Below the pieces are notes generated by a model that saw only the letters and a program-made list of their open reading frames with translations, did no database searches and was not told the DNA's origin. A DNA stretch of 64,000 nt from Arthrobacter sp. PGP41. Its GTDB lineage: Bacteria > Actinomycetota > Actinomycetes > Actinomycetales > Micrococcaceae. Positions 30,568 to 38,334 of the stretch are shown in pieces (positions within the stretch are counted from its first letter, which is position 1; each line of letters starts with the position of its first letter). The position numbers and the translations under genes were made by a program. The stretch lies in assembly GCF_002953935.1 (NCBI RefSeq), contig NZ_CP026514.1, positions 2,294,001-2,358,000 of the forward strand, in the 5' to 3' direction.

Positions 30568-33500
30568 ATGTTTGGCTGGGTTACCCGGTTCAGCATGCAG
30601 TTTCGGATCCTGGTTCTCGCCATCGCAGCGGGCCTCATTACTTTTGGCGTAGTGAATGTTCCACACATGGCTGTGGACACCATGCCGGAGTTCGCCCCAG
30701 CACACGTCGAGATCCAAACCGAAGCCCTTGGGCTTTCCGCCGTTGAGGTCGAACAGCTCATCACCGCACCCATGGAGGCCGACCTCCTCAACGGTGTCGC
30801 CTGGCTGGACGAGATCCGTTCGAAATCCGTTGCCGGCCTGTCTTCCATCGAGCTCATCTTCGAGCCCGGAACCGACCTCCTGCGTGCGCGCCAGCTGGTC
30901 GCGGAACGCATGACCCAGGCGCACGCGCTGCCCAACGTCTCTTCCCCGCCCCTGATCATGCAGCCTATGTCCTCCACCAGCCGCGTCATGATGGTCAAGA
31001 TGAACTCCAAGGAGCTCTCGGGCATCGACATGTCTGTCCTGGCCCGGTGGAAGATCAAGCCCCGGCTGATCGGTATCCCCGGCGTCGCGAACGTCTCCAT
31101 CTGGGGCCAGCGCGAACAGCAGCTGCAGGTCGAAGTCAATCCTGCGCAGCTGCGGGACAAAGGCATCACCCTTGAGCAGCTGGTCAAGACCACGGGTAAC
31201 GCAGTGTGGGTTTCGCCGCTGAGCTTCCTTGAGGCTTCAACGCCGGGAACCGGCGGCTTCGTGGAATCACCGAACCAGCGACTCGGCATCCAGCACGTCC
31301 TCCCCATCCGCACCCCGGCAGACCTGGCCAAGGTCAGCGTGGAGGAAGCGGACCCGCCGTTGCTGCTGGGCGACATCGCCCAGGTGAAGGAAGACCATCA
31401 ACCACTGATCGGCGATGCCGTTGTGGGAGCTGATGCGGGCCTGATGCTGGTGATCGAAAAGTTCCCCAACACCAGCACCGTAGAGGTCACCCGAAATGTC
31501 GAAGCGGCTTTGAAAGACATGGAGCCCGGCCTCACGGGAGTCCAACTTGATACGTCCGTCTTCCGTCCCGCAACCGATGTCCAAGACTCGGTCAACAGTC
31601 TAGCTCTCGCGTTGCTGATCAGCCTGCTGGTCGCGGTCGCCCTTTTCTGGCTGTTCTTCCGCTCCTGGCGGGTCGCCGTGATAGCGCTTGTGGCCATCGT
31701 AACAACGGTCACAACGGCGGCGGTTGTGCTGATCGCCCGAGACGCCACACTCAACGTTGCCATCCTGGTGGGCGTACTGCTCGGCACGTCCGTCATTGTG
31801 GGTGACATCGTAGAAGAGCTCCAGGCCCACCGGCGAACGTCGACGGACCGGGGTGCCCTCGAGGGGCAGCCTGCCAGGTCGCTGGCAAACCGCGTCGTCA
31901 GGGGTGTGCGCACCCCGCTGTTCCATGCCTCATTGATCATGGTTGTTGTCCTCGCTCCAACGCTCTTCCTCACCAGCGTGGCCGGCGCGTTCTTCACGCC
32001 GCTTTTCTGGTCACTGGCCCTTACCCTTGGGGCCGCACTGCTCGTCGGACTGTCCGTGACACCTGTATTGGCTCATTTCCTGCTTCCGGCGAAGACTGCT
32101 CCGGCCAGGGAACTTCCCGCTGTCGGACGCGCGAAGGCATACTACGGCCGCACGCTGGACGGGATCGGTCCTCGGAGAGGCCTAGCCGTCGCGGCGATGG
32201 TGGTCGTGGGAATGCTTGGGATCGCAGCCGGTTCCCAGCTGACGCTCAACAGGCAACTCGTTCCCACGCTGCCAGACCGGACCCTCCTGGTCCAGTGGGA
32301 CAGTGCAGCCGGAACATCGAATGACGAAGTCCGCCGCATCGCGGCCCGGGCTTCCGACGAACTGCGGGCCCTCCCGGGAGTTTCCGGGGTTGGCGGGCAT
32401 GTGGGCAGAGCGATCTCCTCCGATCAGGTGGTGGGCAACAGCTCCGCTGAACTCTGGATCTCCATTGATCGGGAGGCAAACTTCGCCGAGACGGAGCGTG
32501 CCGTACGGGACGTGGTCCAGGGCTACCCCGGCATTGCGCATAACGTGATGAACTACTCGCAGCAGTCGATGGGCGATGTGCGAACCAGCATGGAGCCGGG
32601 TTTCGCGGTCCGGGTTTATGGAACGGAAATGCCGGTGCTGCGCGAAAAGGCGGAGGAGGTCCGCCAGGCCATTCGGAAGGTTGCCGGCGTGAACAACCCC
32701 ACCGTTGTCACCGCCGACATGACCCCGATTGTCGAGGTAAAGGTCGATCTTGCGGCTGCGGAAAAGCACGGTGTAAAGCCGGGTGACGCAAGGCGCGCCG
32801 CCGCGACGCTTATGCAGGGCATCGTTGTAGGAAACCTCTTCGAACAGCAGAAGGTGTTCGAAGTGGTCGTCCGCGGAGCTGTGGGCGTCCGGGACGACCT
32901 GACCAGCATCCGGGAACTGCTCTTGGATACGCCTAGCGGCGGCCACGTCCAACTCGGCCAGATTGCCGATGTGCGCATGGTTCCCAACGAGGTTGTCATC
33001 CAACATGATGCCACTTCCAGGCGAATCGACGTGGTGGCCGATGTTAGCGGACGACCGCTTGCAGACATCCAGCGGGATATCGAGGCGGCCATCCAGCAGA
33101 TTCAGTTCCCTGTCGAGTACCACGCCGAGATCCCCACAAAATATGGTGAGCTCCAGGCCGCGGATACCTTGGTGCACGGACTCGGAGCTGCTGCGGCCCT
33201 GGCTGTGCTGCTCCTGCTCCAGACAGCGGTGAGGAGCTGGAAACTGGCTGTCGCCACATTCCTGGCACTTCCCGCCGCGATGTCCGGAGCGGCGGTGGCG
33301 GCCTGGTTCGGATCGGCGTCGCTGTCCTGGCTGTCGCTGACAGCGTTTGCAGCTGTTCTGGCCATCGCCGCACGCAATGCGGCAATGCTGTCCGCACGCG
33401 TCGACGAGATCTGGCGCGGGACTGCCGGAGCGCAGCGCACGGACGTGGTCATGCAGGCAGCCCGGGATCGGGTATCGCCGGTCCTGAAGTCGGCGGTCAT

Positions 33501-33738
33501 CACGCTCCTCGTGATGATGCCGCCCGCCATCCTGGGCGGCACAGTTGGCCAGGCCTTGATTGCTCCGATGCTGCTGATTATTGGCGGCGGCCTGGTGACC
33601 ACAACGCTCGTGGGGCTCTTCATCCTCCCGTCGCTCGCCCTCTGGTTCGGTCCACGCACCGAGCCCGAAGAGTGGTCGGAAGTCTACGAATCAGAACATC
33701 CAGTCATGTCGATGCCGGAAAAGGTGAAAGTATCATGA
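30568..33738 (+). CDS. RND efflux permease, CusA/AcrB-like, with atypical proton-relay motif
   Basis: A 1056-residue polytopic protein of the AcrB/ActD/CusA family. It has the full RND plan: TM1, a large extracytoplasmic domain (from about residue 35), TM2-6, a second large domain (about 550-850) and TM7-12. Family sequence includes DTMPEFAPAHVEIQTEALGL after TM1. In TM4 the acidic pair of RND pumps reads Gly412-Asp413, and the Glu of the VEN motif is Gln419; the basic TM10 residue is Arg936. It overlaps the next gene by 4 bp (ATGA). A drug, metal or lipid substrate is possible. RND pumps of this type usually serve diderms; this host is monoderm. Paralogue: 34192-37332. Confidence 0.88.
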   Translation: MFGWVTRFSMQFRILVLAIAAGLITFGVVNVPHMAVDTMPEFAPAHVEIQTEALGLSAVEVEQLITAPMEADLLNGVAWLDEIRSKSVAGLSSIELIFEPGTDLLRARQLVAERMTQAHALPNVSSPPLIMQPMSSTSRVMMVKMNSKELSGIDMSVLARWKIKPRLIGIPGVANVSIWGQREQQLQVEVNPAQLRDKGITLEQLVKTTGNAVWVSPLSFLEASTPGTGGFVESPNQRLGIQHVLPIRTPADLAKVSVEEADPPLLLGDIAQVKEDHQPLIGDAVVGADAGLMLVIEKFPNTSTVEVTRNVEAALKDMEPGLTGVQLDTSVFRPATDVQDSVNSLALALLISLLVAVALFWLFFRSWRVAVIALVAIVTTVTTAAVVLIARDATLNVAILVGVLLGTSVIVGDIVEELQAHRRTSTDRGALEGQPARSLANRVVRGVRTPLFHASLIMVVVLAPTLFLTSVAGAFFTPLFWSLALTLGAALLVGLSVTPVLAHFLLPAKTAPARELPAVGRAKAYYGRTLDGIGPRRGLAVAAMVVVGMLGIAAGSQLTLNRQLVPTLPDRTLLVQWDSAAGTSNDEVRRIAARASDELRALPGVSGVGGHVGRAISSDQVVGNSSAELWISIDREANFAETERAVRDVVQGYPGIAHNVMNYSQQSMGDVRTSMEPGFAVRVYGTEMPVLREKAEEVRQAIRKVAGVNNPTVVTADMTPIVEVKVDLAAAEKHGVKPGDARRAAATLMQGIVVGNLFEQQKVFEVVVRGAVGVRDDLTSIRELLLDTPSGGHVQLGQIADVRMVPNEVVIQHDATSRRIDVVADVSGRPLADIQRDIEAAIQQIQFPVEYHAEIPTKYGELQAADTLVHGLGAAAALAVLLLLQTAVRSWKLAVATFLALPAAMSGAAVAAWFGSASLSWLSLTAFAAVLAIAARNAAMLSARVDEIWRGTAGAQRTDVVMQAARDRVSPVLKSAVITLLVMMPPAILGGTVGQALIAPMLLIIGGGLVTTTLVGLFILPSLALWFGPRTEPEEWSEVYESEHPVMSMPEKVKVS

Positions 33739-34190
33739 CCAGCAAAAGCCTCCTTCGGCGCCTGCCAGTCGCAGCTGCTGTCTGCGCCGCACTGTTGTCC
33801 TCACTGCCCGCCTGTGCCCAAACCACAGCGCAGGCGGAGTCTTCATCCGAAGCGCCGGCGAAAGTGGAGAAGAATGCCACCACTGGCATCGCACGGATAA
33901 CACTCAGCCAGCGGGCCATTGATCGGCTTGAACTGCTCACGGATACCGTCAAGCCTGCCCCGGAGGGGGGAGGCATTGTCCTTCCCTACGCTGCCCTGCT
34001 TTACGACGCCCACGGGAAGACGTGGGTTTACGCGAACCCCGAGCCGAGGGTGTTTGAGCGCCAGGCTGTCACCGTCTCCAAAGTGGAGGCCGGTGTGGTC
34101 ACGGCCAGCGCGGGTCCCGCGGTCGGGACTCCGGTGGTGACCGTGGCTGCCGCTGAGTTGTTCGGCGCCGAGTTCAACACAGGCAAATGA
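33735..34190 (+). CDS. Miniature membrane-fusion/adaptor-like secreted protein
   Basis: A 151-residue exported protein. A basic start and hydrophobic core (LPVAAAVCAALLSSLPAC) form a signal peptide; LPAC may act as a lipobox, though it is a weak one. The rest resembles the C-terminal membrane-proximal part of CusB/CzcB-type adaptors: ITLSQRAIDRLELLTDTV, IVLPYAALLYDAHGKTWVYA, FERQAVTVSKVEAGVVTAS. The barrel-sandwich and helical hairpin of normal adaptors (about 400 residues) are absent. It starts inside the stop of the upstream permease and ends 1 bp before the downstream one, so all three are translationally coupled. The similarity is by eye. Confidence 0.72.
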   Translation: MTSKSLLRRLPVAAAVCAALLSSLPACAQTTAQAESSSEAPAKVEKNATTGIARITLSQRAIDRLELLTDTVKPAPEGGGIVLPYAALLYDAHGKTWVYANPEPRVFERQAVTVSKVEAGVVTASAGPAVGTPVVTVAAAELFGAEFNTGK

Positions 34191-34191
34191 C

Positions 34192-37100
34192 ATGCGCCGG
34201 ATCGTAGCGGCCAGCCTGAGGTTTAGATCGATCGTCATAGCGTTGGCGGCGGCTCTGATGATGGTTGGCGGGGCGCAGCTCAGCAGCGCATCGGTGGACG
34301 TATTCCCCGAATTCGCGCCGCCCAAAGTCGAGGTCCAGACAGCCTGCCTGGGACTGACAGCCGCTGAGGTGGAGGAGCTGGTGTCAGTTCCCCTGGAAGA
34401 GGCGTTCAACGGCATTGACGGCCTCGATCACATGCGGTCCAAGTCGGTACCCCAACTCTCATCCATTGTGATGGAGTTCAAGAACGACATGGATCTGCTC
34501 ACCGCCCGCCAGCTGGTGTCCGAGCGGATGGCGACAGTTATTCCGACCCTGCCTACGTGGGCAGCGCCGCCGGTGATGCTGCAGCCGCTGTCTTCCACCA
34601 GCCGGGTGATGAAGATCGGGTTGTCCTCCGACACCCGGTCCCTGATCGAGATGTCGATGATCTCCTACTGGAACATCCGGGCCCATCTGCTCCGCGTCCC
34701 GGGAGTGGCGAATGTGGCAATCTGGGGTGAACGCCTCCAGATGCTCCAGGTCCAGGCTGATCCGGCCAGGTTGGCAGCACACAAGGTCAGCCTTGAATCC
34801 GTCATGACCACCACGGCCAACGCCCTCGACGCCGGCCTGCTGCAATATTCCCCAGGCGCCGTGATCGGCACCGGCGGATCGTTCGACACACCCAATCAGT
34901 CAATCGGAATCACCCATACACAGCCCATCACGTCACCCGCGGAGCTTGCGCAAGTGACACTCGAAGATCGGGAGGGACTGCCCCCGCTCCGGCTGAGTGA
35001 CGTGGCAAACGTGGTGGAGGACCATCAACAGTTGATTGGGGACGCCGTCATCAACGGCGGCCCGGGGTTGATGCTGATCGTGGAGAAGCTGCCGTGGGGC
35101 AACACCCTCGAAGTCACGCGAGGGGTGGAAGAGGCAATGAAGCAGCTCGAACCCGGACTGACGGGAATCGCTGTGGACACGGCCATCTTCAGGCCGGCGA
35201 CATTTATCGAGGAATCGCTCGGCAATCTCGGCGTAGCCCTCCTTCTCGGATGCCTGTTGGTCATTCTCGTGCTGAGTGTCTTCCTGTTCCAGTGGCGGAC
35301 GGCTTTGGTCAGCGTGCTGGCCATCCCCTTGTCATTGATGGCTGCAGCCCTCGTGTTGTATTGGACCGGCGGAACAATCAACACAATGGTGTTGGCGGGG
35401 TTGGTGATCGCCGTCGGTGTGGTGGTGGACGACGCCATCATCGACGTCGAGAATATCGTCAGGCGCCTGCGGCACCACCGGGCAACCGGCGGCACCGAAA
35501 GCACCGCGAGGGTGGTGGTCAATGCATCCCTGGAAGTCCGCGGACCTATTGTCTACGCCACGCTGATCATTGTGGCGGCCACGGTCCCGATTTTCTTCCT
35601 GGACGGGCTGACGGGCGCGTTCTTCCGGCCGCTGGCCACCTCCTACACCCTCGCGGTCATGGCGTCCATGGTCGTGGCGCTCACAGTGACGCCGGCGATG
35701 GCATACATCTTCCTCCGAAACGCCAAGCTGGAGGACAAGGATCCGCCTGTTGTCAGGGTCCTGAAGCGCTGGTATGCCAATGCGCTGCGTCCCATCGTCC
35801 GACGCCCCGTTCCAGGGTATGTCTCCCTTGGCGTCCTGGGTGTGGTCGGTATCGTGGCGGCACCGCTGCTGGGCCAGTCGTTGCTCCCCTCCTTTAAGGA
35901 ACGTGATTTCCTGATGCACTGGCTCACGCAGCCCGGCACGTCCAACGCGGAGGAGGTCCGTGTCAGCGAACTGGCCTGCAGGGAACTCATGACCATCCAA
36001 GGCGTGAACAACTGCGGGGCCCACACGGGGCAGGCGTTCAACGCTGATGAGGTGGTGGGCGTCTACTTCGGTGAGAACTGGATCAGCGTTGACCCCGGGG
36101 TGGATTATGACAAGACCCTTGCAAAGGTTCAGGAAGTCGTGGACGGCTACCCCGGAATCGTCCGGGATGTCCAGACCTACCTGAAGGAACGCATCCGCGA
36201 GGTTTTGACTGGTACTGGTTACGCTGTGGTGGTCCGCGTCTACGGCGACGACCTTGCTACCCTCCGCCAGGAAGCTGACAAGATCAAGGAAATACTGGGG
36301 GGCATCGATGGCGCCATCGGCGCGAAGGTTGCCCTGCAGGCCAACATCCCGCAGATCGATGTGGAAGTGAACCTGGAAGCGGCGAACCGCCACGGGCTGA
36401 AGCCGGGCGACGTGCGCCGTGCGGCTGCCACCATGGTGGCCGGCGAAGAAGTCGGCGACATCTACCGGGACGGCAAGGCCTACGACGTCCAGGTGTGGAG
36501 CCCCCCGGAGGTCCGGACGAGCGTTACGAGCATAGAGAACCTCATACTCGATACGCCCTCCGGGCAAAAGATCCGGCTGGCCGACGTGGCCGCAGTTTCG
36601 GTGAAGCCCACGCCCAACGTCATCGAGCGCTCAGAAGGGTCCAGGCGCATCGACGTCAGTGCCAACGTCAAGGAAGGAGACCTGGCGAAGGTAGTGGAGA
36701 AGCTCCAGTCTGAGATGGGTTCGGTTCAGTTCCCTGTCGGCTACAGCGCGGTTGTCCTTGGCGAGTATGCCGAGCGGCAGGCAGCATCCCAACGGTTGCT
36801 CTTCTACTCGTTTGGCGCTGTCATCGTTGTCTACCTTCTCCTGCAAGCAGCCTTCAAGAGCTGGCGGCTGGCAACCCTGGCCATCCTGACCCTGCCGGTG
36901 GCGCTCGTGGGCGGAATTATCGCAGCCCATCTTAGCGGTGGAATCCTGTCCCTGGGTTCCCTGGTTGGCTTCCTCACGCTCATGGGGATCGCGGCCCGCA
37001 ACGGCATCCTGCTCATCAACCACTGCCAGCACCTCGAACAGTTCGAGGGCGTCCCCTTCGGCCCGGAACTGGTGCTTCGGGGGGCTGCCGAGAGGCTGTC

Positions 37101-37332
37101 GCCGATCCTGATGACGACGCTGGCCACCGCGCTGGCCCTGGTGCCGCTTGTGGTGATGGGCAACATCCCTGGCCACGAGATCGAGCATCCCATGGCAGTG
37201 GTGATCCTGGGCGGGCTGGTCACGTCGACGTTGGTCAACCTGTTCATCGTCCCCTCGCTGTACCTGCGTTTCGCCAAGGGCGGCCGCGGCCGGCGCAGCA
37301 CCCCCGAACTGCAGCCGGCCCCTGCGGCGTAG
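34192..37332 (+). CDS. RND efflux permease, CusA/AcrB-like, with intact acidic pair
   Basis: A 1046-residue RND permease, paralogous and collinear with the one at 30568-33738. TM1 is followed by DVFPEFAPPKVEVQTACLGL. TM4 has the canonical GVVVDDAIIDVENIVRR, with Asp413, Asp414 and Glu420; TM10 has GIAARNGILLINH with Arg936 where AcrB has Lys. This subunit should be proton-coupled. The first domain carries FNGIDGLDHMRSKSVPQLSS, typical of heavy-metal and multidrug RND pumps alike. The pair may form a hetero-oligomer as MdtB/MdtC do. Transport substrate unknown. The C-terminus is short and basic. No regulator or outer-membrane channel gene is nearby. Confidence 0.9.
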   Translation: MRRIVAASLRFRSIVIALAAALMMVGGAQLSSASVDVFPEFAPPKVEVQTACLGLTAAEVEELVSVPLEEAFNGIDGLDHMRSKSVPQLSSIVMEFKNDMDLLTARQLVSERMATVIPTLPTWAAPPVMLQPLSSTSRVMKIGLSSDTRSLIEMSMISYWNIRAHLLRVPGVANVAIWGERLQMLQVQADPARLAAHKVSLESVMTTTANALDAGLLQYSPGAVIGTGGSFDTPNQSIGITHTQPITSPAELAQVTLEDREGLPPLRLSDVANVVEDHQQLIGDAVINGGPGLMLIVEKLPWGNTLEVTRGVEEAMKQLEPGLTGIAVDTAIFRPATFIEESLGNLGVALLLGCLLVILVLSVFLFQWRTALVSVLAIPLSLMAAALVLYWTGGTINTMVLAGLVIAVGVVVDDAIIDVENIVRRLRHHRATGGTESTARVVVNASLEVRGPIVYATLIIVAATVPIFFLDGLTGAFFRPLATSYTLAVMASMVVALTVTPAMAYIFLRNAKLEDKDPPVVRVLKRWYANALRPIVRRPVPGYVSLGVLGVVGIVAAPLLGQSLLPSFKERDFLMHWLTQPGTSNAEEVRVSELACRELMTIQGVNNCGAHTGQAFNADEVVGVYFGENWISVDPGVDYDKTLAKVQEVVDGYPGIVRDVQTYLKERIREVLTGTGYAVVVRVYGDDLATLRQEADKIKEILGGIDGAIGAKVALQANIPQIDVEVNLEAANRHGLKPGDVRRAAATMVAGEEVGDIYRDGKAYDVQVWSPPEVRTSVTSIENLILDTPSGQKIRLADVAAVSVKPTPNVIERSEGSRRIDVSANVKEGDLAKVVEKLQSEMGSVQFPVGYSAVVLGEYAERQAASQRLLFYSFGAVIVVYLLLQAAFKSWRLATLAILTLPVALVGGIIAAHLSGGILSLGSLVGFLTLMGIAARNGILLINHCQHLEQFEGVPFGPELVLRGAAERLSPILMTTLATALALVPLVVMGNIPGHEIEHPMAVVILGGLVTSTLVNLFIVPSLYLRFAKGGRGRRSTPELQPAPAA

Positions 37333-37363
37333 TCCTTTTTCAACGAGCATGAAAGGCACTGAG

Positions 37364-38260
37364 ATGACGCTCTTAGCACGCCGCCTCGCGGCATGCGGGT
37401 CTGTGCTGCTGCTGGCCTTCGGATCGCTGACGGCTATGTCGGCACCGACGGCGGCCGCGCCGGCGTCCGAGGAACTCTGCGGCCCCGGTTCCGCGATCAA
37501 TTTCGACCGGTCCGCTTTCCCGGAATATCCACGGATCGACAACAAGTGGTTCCCGCTGAAGCCGGGCATGCAGTTCACCACGGTGGGCACCGTGACCTCG
37601 GCCGACGGCGTCCACGAACACAAGGTGGTCCACACGGTCACCGGACTGACGAAGGTGATCGACGGCGTCACAACGCGCGTGCTGTGGGACCGCGACTACT
37701 CTGACGGCGAACTGGTCGAATCCGAACTGGCCTTCTTCGCCCAGACCCGCGGCGGGGATGTGTGGCTGTTTGGCGAATACCCGGAGGAGTACGAGAACGG
37801 GGAGTTCGTAGGTGCCCCAAGCACCTTCATCAGCGGATTGGCCAAGGCTCAGGCCGGCATCGCCATGCAGGCTAAGCCGAAGACCGGCACGGCCTCTTAC
37901 GTCCAGGCATACGCACCCAAGGTTGATTTCCTCGACTGCGGGACAGTGTTCAAGAAAAACCAGAAAGTCTGCGTCCCCACCGGGTGCTACGACGACGTCC
38001 TGGTGATCGACGAATACAACCCCCTGGAACCGCCTGAGGCCGGACACCAGCGGAAGTTCTACTCAGCCGGAACCGGGCTGATTAAGGTTACTGCCGTTGG
38101 AGGCCCGGACCAGGAATTCATGGATCTGGTGAAAGTGCGGAAGCTGAACGCCGAGCAGTTCGCGGGCGTCAACGCGCAGGCGCTGGAACTGGACGAACGG
38201 GGCTATACGGTCAGCCGGAGCGTCTATGCCAAGACGCCTCGCGCTGAACTCGACGACTGA
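37364..38260 (+). CDS. Secreted protein of unknown function, RND operon partner
   Basis: A 298-residue protein with a signal peptide (basic start, hydrophobic SVLLLAFGSLTAMSAPTAA, likely cleaved after Ala-Ala-Ala near residue 32). The mature part has Cys in ELCGPGS, FLDCGTVF, KVCVPTGCYDD, the last three close enough for disulfides or metal binding. Conserved-looking stretches include YPRIDNKWFPLKPGMQF and LWDRDYSDGELVESELAFFAQ. I recognise the type as a recurring actinobacterial hypothetical protein but know no assigned function. ATG at 37364 has AAAGG upstream and was preferred to 37349. It is 31 bp after the second permease and ends at a strong terminator, so it closes the operon. Confidence 0.75.
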   Translation: MTLLARRLAACGSVLLLAFGSLTAMSAPTAAAPASEELCGPGSAINFDRSAFPEYPRIDNKWFPLKPGMQFTTVGTVTSADGVHEHKVVHTVTGLTKVIDGVTTRVLWDRDYSDGELVESELAFFAQTRGGDVWLFGEYPEEYENGEFVGAPSTFISGLAKAQAGIAMQAKPKTGTASYVQAYAPKVDFLDCGTVFKKNQKVCVPTGCYDDVLVIDEYNPLEPPEAGHQRKFYSAGTGLIKVTAVGGPDQEFMDLVKVRKLNAEQFAGVNAQALELDERGYTVSRSVYAKTPRAELDD

Positions 38261-38302: not shown

Positions 38303-38334
38303 GAAGGAGGGCGGCACCCGTGCCGCCCTCCTTC
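38303..38334. terminator. Terminator between the RND operon and glpK
   Basis: A perfect 15-bp inverted repeat, GAAGGAGGGCGGCAC (38303-38317) and its complement (38320-38334), with a very short loop and a following CTTCTACGTT. It lies between convergent stops 43 bp and 29 bp away and probably works in both directions. Confidence 0.88.

Follow-up and report, generated by a model that had tools for sequence, protein, structure and literature searches.

A two-permease RND unit with a predicted docking-domain adaptor in Arthrobacter sp. PGP41, a candidate exporter without an outer-membrane channel

How might a resistance-nodulation-division (RND) pump work in a genome where no outer-membrane channel is matched? 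The question is raised by a locus of the soil actinobacterium Arthrobacter sp. PGP41, in a window of 64,000 nucleotides (the whole stretch analysed, positions 2294001-2358000 of a 4.27 Mb genome in one contig). Here, two RND permease genes, A and B, enclose the gene of a small protein, S, and are followed by that of a secreted protein, X. The answer that we favor, with moderate confidence, is that A-S-B-X is an RND exporter without an outer-membrane channel, in which A and B join in a mixed trimer, with S as a minimal adaptor and X as the recipient of the substrate. In effect, it would be an unusual version of the well-known drug and metal pump family. The four genes, in window positions, are as follows.

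30568-33738, plus strand: permease A, an RND permease of the AcrB/CusA superfamily, 1056 residues, the faster-evolving partner (ACR_tran match of 430 bits over residues 6-1023; tree; ratio of nonsynonymous to synonymous substitution rates, dN/dS)
33735-34190, plus strand: S, predicted minimal adaptor, 151 residues from the ATG at 33735 (lipoprotein-type signal, then the fold of a membrane fusion protein or periplasmic adaptor protein, MFP/PAP)
34192-37332, plus strand: permease B, an RND permease, 1046 residues, the conserved partner (ACR_tran match of 693 bits over residues 8-1027; dN/dS)
37364-38260, plus strand: X, a secreted beta-barrel-like protein, 298 residues, with a predicted LolA/YmcC-like fold

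An earlier note on this DNA had described four open reading frames (ORFs) with a 4-bp overlap and a 1-bp gap, and an ORF check bears this out: the start of S overlaps the 3′ end of A by 4 bases, and S and B are 1 base apart. X has an alternative in-frame ATG at 37349, which would give 303 residues. The note also took the genes for one four-gene unit, a view that would fail if the four were rarely found together. Relatives were searched with S alone; thus, the permeases at the loci found count as independent evidence. Within the order, the single S sequence found a match in 6 of 297 genomes, two of which (L017 and L018) were weak, had no permease unit and were dropped. A 12-row S profile matched 73 of 198 genomes of the genus, two of them solely through weak matches (E about 5e-4 to 8.5e-4) that are probably due to chance, and a phylum-wide search matched 16 of 396; L116, from the window's class, was a weak match without permeases and was also dropped. 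The nearest named protein relatives, among the matches listed, are from Pseudarthrobacter and Arthrobacter.

The detailed set comprises 69 S loci, 55 from a pattern scan of named genomes and 14 from 13 genomes of other classes of the phylum. The order permease-S-permease on one strand is present in 64 of the 65 loci with room on both sides, the exception being a planctomycete locus, L098. A strict script, allowing no more than 200 bases from one matched segment to the next, found permeases on both sides in 56 of the 69, and the other 13 were read by hand: L050, L054, L092 and L109 are at contig ends, L070 has broken frames, L098 is a different operon, and in the Rokuibacteriota loci L093, L094, L095 and L097 and the deep loci L103, L107 and L114 only the matched segment is distant, the gene itself being adjacent. 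X lies directly after B in 36 of 63 loci with room, including four from Rokuibacteriota, eight from other classes of Actinomycetota and L070. (The script alone counted 31; reading by hand contributed L070, where X is in pieces, and the four from Rokuibacteriota; the 63 are the 68 loci without L098, minus L054, L092, L105, L109 and L115, which have no room.) Hence the four genes are not rarely together. In Sinomonas, the unit is flanked, by eye, by leuS-like and glpK-like genes just as it is in the window, and this speaks for vertical descent in that case.

Some variation was seen among these loci. The unit is present twice in some Arthrobacter genomes, examples being L015/L016 from Arthrobacter ipis (the same loci as L074/L078) and similar ones among L069-L096. 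There is also a second, diverged type, in which A is about 47-55% identical to the A of the window and X is usually not directly downstream. One genome from another actinomycetotal class (L108, 8241-8696 and 11943-12554, G320:C68) has an extra S-type gene 5′ of A, giving the order S-A-S-B-X. In L070, from Arthrobacter sp. Hiyo4, A is intact and the frames of S, B and X are each broken, through sequencing errors or decay; the fragments were treated separately.

The small protein is the most unusual part of the unit. S begins with a lipoprotein-type signal with Cys27, followed at residues ~41-147 by the membrane-proximal domain of MFP adaptors. The lipoyl domain, the beta-barrel and the alpha-helical hairpin, with which adaptors of other bacteria extend to an outer membrane, are not in its 151 residues, which include the signal-like N-terminus; the longest helix of the predicted model has at most 9 residues, about 105 residues are confidently folded, and, against 67 full-length adaptors, S is short of a median of ~249 residues. 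By structure comparison, the model is closest to the end parts of CusB and ZneB. In sequence databases, S has no match at E ≤ 1 in Pfam, so that the MmpS family profile is not matched either, and none above cut-off in NCBIfam, where sub-threshold hits are linaridin_CypA (E 0.046) and the C-terminus of RND_mfp (E 0.086). A PDB sequence search with the S profile returned five matches up to E 10, two of which are adaptors (6vej, E 0.23; 4l8j, E 0.33), while the others are a glycoside hydrolase (0.24), Paratox (0.58) and a beta-lactamase (0.72). Among its relatives listed (120 of 221), those that bear a name are mostly called "hypothetical protein". The assignment of S as an adaptor is based on the fold comparison and on homology to full-length adaptors in the profile search. 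As far as its predicted fold, homology and signal motif show, S is a lipid-tethered MFP adaptor stripped to its membrane-proximal, permease-docking domain, which supports the earlier idea of an adaptor-like protein in place of a normal one.

Alternatively, S could be a small accessory protein of the MmpS kind, unrelated to MFP adaptors. Size, operon position and host phylum do recall MmpS5-MmpL5, and MmpS proteins have about 140 residues. Nevertheless, a relationship to MmpS finds no support in a protein with no Pfam match and an MFP membrane-proximal fold, and this explanation seems to us hardly credible.

The permeases, described before as two full-length proteins of the AcrB/CusA type, indeed exceed the curated cut-off of ACR_tran (PF00873, 28 bits), with matches that span almost all of the model. 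A shares ~40% identity with relatives of B, as does B with relatives of A. A quick maximum-likelihood tree was built from 61 selected rows, with one distant outgroup. In it, one branch separates A from B (Shimodaira-Hasegawa-like approximate likelihood ratio test, 99), and Rokuibacteriota are the first to split in both halves, whose subtrees are alike by eye; with two long branches meeting at it, the root is uncertain. A and B would be the products of an old duplication. In pairwise comparison with two relatives, dN/dS lies at 0.11-0.13 in A, at 0.06-0.08 in B and at 0.096-0.124 in S and X, and by dN and tree branch lengths A evolves ~1.6-2 times faster than B. The two also differ in the proton relay of transmembrane helix 4 (TM4).

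31801-31806, plus strand: Gly412-Asp413 in TM4 of permease A, with Gly in place of the first proton-relay Asp (column count)
35428-35433, plus strand: Asp413-Asp414 in TM4 of permease B, the proton-relay pair (Asp-Asp in 71 of 71 B rows)

Thus, B has the Asp pair of an RND proton relay and the A of the window does not. In A, the column of the first Asp holds G or T in all 53 Micrococcales rows (three loci are counted twice in this number), while in the 16 other rows it is D in 15 and N in one, and 14 of these 16 keep the complete pair. An Arg in TM10, at the site of AcrB Lys940, is conserved in 68 of 69 A rows and, among B rows, in all 70 that have a letter at the column. The TM11 motif is almost invariant in B and variable in A.

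These changes could mean that A has degenerated into a regulatory subunit that does not transport, and that transport is the work of B with S. The lost TM4 Asp, the drifted TM11 motif and the higher rate of A would all be expected in that case. However, a dN/dS of 0.11-0.13 across all of A indicates that the protein is not decaying, its TM10 Arg is kept in all rows but one, and the relay pair is whole in most deep-lineage A rows, which makes a degenerate A quite improbable. It could also be that A3 and B3 are two separate homotrimeric pumps, merely co-expressed and with S in common. Each permease fits ACR_tran over nearly its whole length, and where A has its own Asp-Asp, outside Micrococcales, it could be autonomous. 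By contrast, the Micrococcales A has lost the first TM4 Asp in every row, and 64 of the 65 loci with room keep both permeases; two independent pumps are, in our opinion, unlikely.

The nature of the substrate brings a further alternative, namely a heavy-metal efflux (HME) system of the CusA/ZneA type. The nearest solved permease is ZneA for both A and B, followed by CusA for B, and the nearest adaptors to S are CusB and ZneB. Nevertheless, both permeases miss TIGR00914 (HME, CusA-CzcA; cut-off 701 bits), with 327 bits for A and 537 for B. They also miss TIGR00915 (hydrophobe/amphiphile efflux-1; cut-off 940 bits), with 138 and 350. Aligned with CusA, B places H576, F626 and E670 against three methionines, presumably the metal-binding M573, M623 and M672, and its TM4 carries Asp-Asp at a site with a single Asp in CusA and ZneA. 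An HME pump was set aside as the best reading on the sub-cut-off TIGR00914 scores and the residues opposite the CusA methionines, and it is about as doubtful as a degenerate A. Metal export by the unit is thus less likely, and the substrate is probably amphiphilic rather than copper or silver.

The absence of a channel, also claimed before, holds beyond the locus. Among the neighboring ORFs, no regulator or channel gene adjoins the unit, and a search for outer-membrane efflux proteins (OEP/TolC) gave 0 matches in the whole window genome while being positive in 7 of 14 control genomes. Likewise, Omp85 and OEP were matched in none of 15 Actinomycetota and Thermomicrobiales carriers (14 of them Actinomycetota; several assemblies are incomplete, and controls were positive in 7 of 14). 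Both were matched in the four Rokuibacteriota genomes and the planctomycete genome. The adaptor follows a graded series across these phyla. In the planctomycete locus, the neighbors are one permease gene and the genes of an OEP channel and of a full adaptor that matches HlyD_3. In Rokuibacteriota, S has 238-243 residues in three loci and 174 in one, depending on the start codons chosen, with a stretch like the barrel region and no hairpin. In Actinomycetota, it has about 141-161 residues where read, and it is short too in one contig from Thermomicrobiales, which shows only S and B.

Since Rokuibacteriota with outer-membrane genes also lack the hairpin, a single membrane explains its loss only in part. 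Either a diderm was where the hairpin was first lost, or the unit was transferred from one phylum to another, and a tree with one distant outgroup cannot choose between the two; moreover, the records from Rokuibacteriota, Thermomicrobiales and the planctomycete were assembled from metagenomes, with possible binning errors. The earlier proposal of a single-membrane pump is therefore supported by the 14 Actinomycetota carriers without Omp85 or OEP and weakened by four Rokuibacteriota that have both and carry the same gene order. Overall, the conserved unit, the channel-less carriers and the reduced adaptor of that interpretation stand, and its exclusively single-membrane character does not. In two Rokuibacteriota loci (L093, 15685-16971; L097, 8722-10023), past a gap or one gene, the unit is followed by a secreted-looking protein of 428-433 residues, with a coiled-coil-like N-terminal stretch and no Pfam family above cut-off, which is possibly an outer-membrane partner.

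How, then, would the unit work? According to the available text of PMC4338810, the working form of MdtBC is B2C, in which proton and substrate roles are divided, and the membrane-proximal domain of MFPs changes shape, stimulating transporters; MmpS5 is proposed to hold the MmpL5 trimer together (PMC12346298, available text). By analogy with MdtB2C, A and B most likely assemble as a mixed trimer. B, with its relay intact, would be the main proton-driven partner and supply the energy, while A, which in this lineage has lost the first TM4 Asp yet is kept under purifying selection, may mainly shape substrate binding or pace the cycle. S would dock on the periplasmic domains of the permeases from the membrane surface, clamping and stimulating the trimer, a role suggested by that of its domain in known pumps and by the MmpS5 precedent. 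The substrate would exit at the top of the funnel to X, or perhaps straight to the cell wall.

The closest known systems resemble the unit in part. MdtABC and MuxABC also combine two diverged RND permeases and one adaptor. MdtABC, however, has a full adaptor and TolC, with both permease genes side by side, whereas here the adaptor gene lies between them and one permease lacks the TM4 Asp in this lineage. CusBA(C) and ZneCAB belong to the same permease superfamily, include the solved permeases nearest to A and B, and have in CusB and ZneB the end parts that the S fold resembles; the unit differs in its two permeases, its unreached CusA cut-off and the lack of a channel match in the genome, and S in having lost barrel, lipoyl domain and hairpin. 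BesA of Borrelia, a hairpin-less adaptor, has chains of 262-275 residues against the about 105 confidently folded in S, and works with the outer-membrane protein BesC, as far as the available text describes it. SwrC/YerP of Bacillus, like the unit, is an RND permease in a Gram-positive host; it is a single permease, not known to have an adaptor of the S kind. YerP appears as such a permease in the available text of PMC8277102. MmpS5-MmpL5 joins a small accessory protein to an actinobacterial RND transporter through ATGA-overlapping genes (PMC12346298, same text), but S has an MFP membrane-proximal fold and no Pfam match, and the permeases here are of the ACR_tran type.

In the full-text literature, among the matches listed and with most subscription journals outside coverage, there was no recognized description of the unit. 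Perhaps it was missed because a broad RND phylogeny, in its available text, left out Actinobacteria, Chloroflexi and most Firmicutes (PMC10872679). By word search of the available text, a 2026 adaptor review mentions "Gram-positive" once, in the abstract, and BesA and MmpS nowhere (PMC13328181). With only the permease-docking domain left, S exceeds the case that two reviews lead one to expect. We give about even chances to a widespread, undescribed RND exporter class that is channel-independent, has two permeases and a docking-domain-only adaptor, and hands its substrate to a Lol-like carrier, either secreted or lipid-anchored. If true, the membrane-proximal domain alone would be a sufficient adaptor, and permease activation would be separable from channel bridging. 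The unit would serve as a compact natural model of adaptor functions in RND pumps other than the bridge to TolC, and its one altered proton-relay partner would make it a natural test of how labor is shared out in mixed RND trimers.

As for X, a candidate lipid carrier of the LolA/LolB type, it has no match at E ≤ 1 in Pfam or NCBIfam, and its predicted fold resembles those of the secreted barrels LolA, YmcC-like and DUF1849, with 6-13% identity and no family match. Among its relatives listed (120 of 1805), those that bear a name are mostly "hypothetical protein". Two relatives lie elsewhere in the window genome, at G000:C1:251099-251902 (68% identical over the matched part), which bears a lipoprotein-type signal, and at 1144180-1144722 (31%); their gene neighborhoods gave no functional hint. 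Fragments resembling X also occur, in the region that holds the unit, near two genes that by eye look like the ATPase and permease of an ABC exporter (L014, 16842-18940; L119).

Around the unit, leuS-like and glpK-like genes, recognized by eye from ORFs, flank it on the minus strand, and a candidate terminator follows X.

38304-38333, no strand: perfect 14-bp inverted repeat read from the sequence, a possible terminator, with no T-run

The repeat has a 2-base center and lies between X and the convergent glpK-like gene. The earlier note had a terminator here; the inverted repeat is indeed present, but it has no T-run and a terminator scan gave it no score. Besides A and B, the window genome has one weak partial RND match and one further full-length RND permease (G000:C1:2698342-2701407; L012, 8331-11564). 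Beside the latter, the ORF map shows by eye oxidoreductase-like genes and no adaptor, a more ordinary Gram-positive arrangement.

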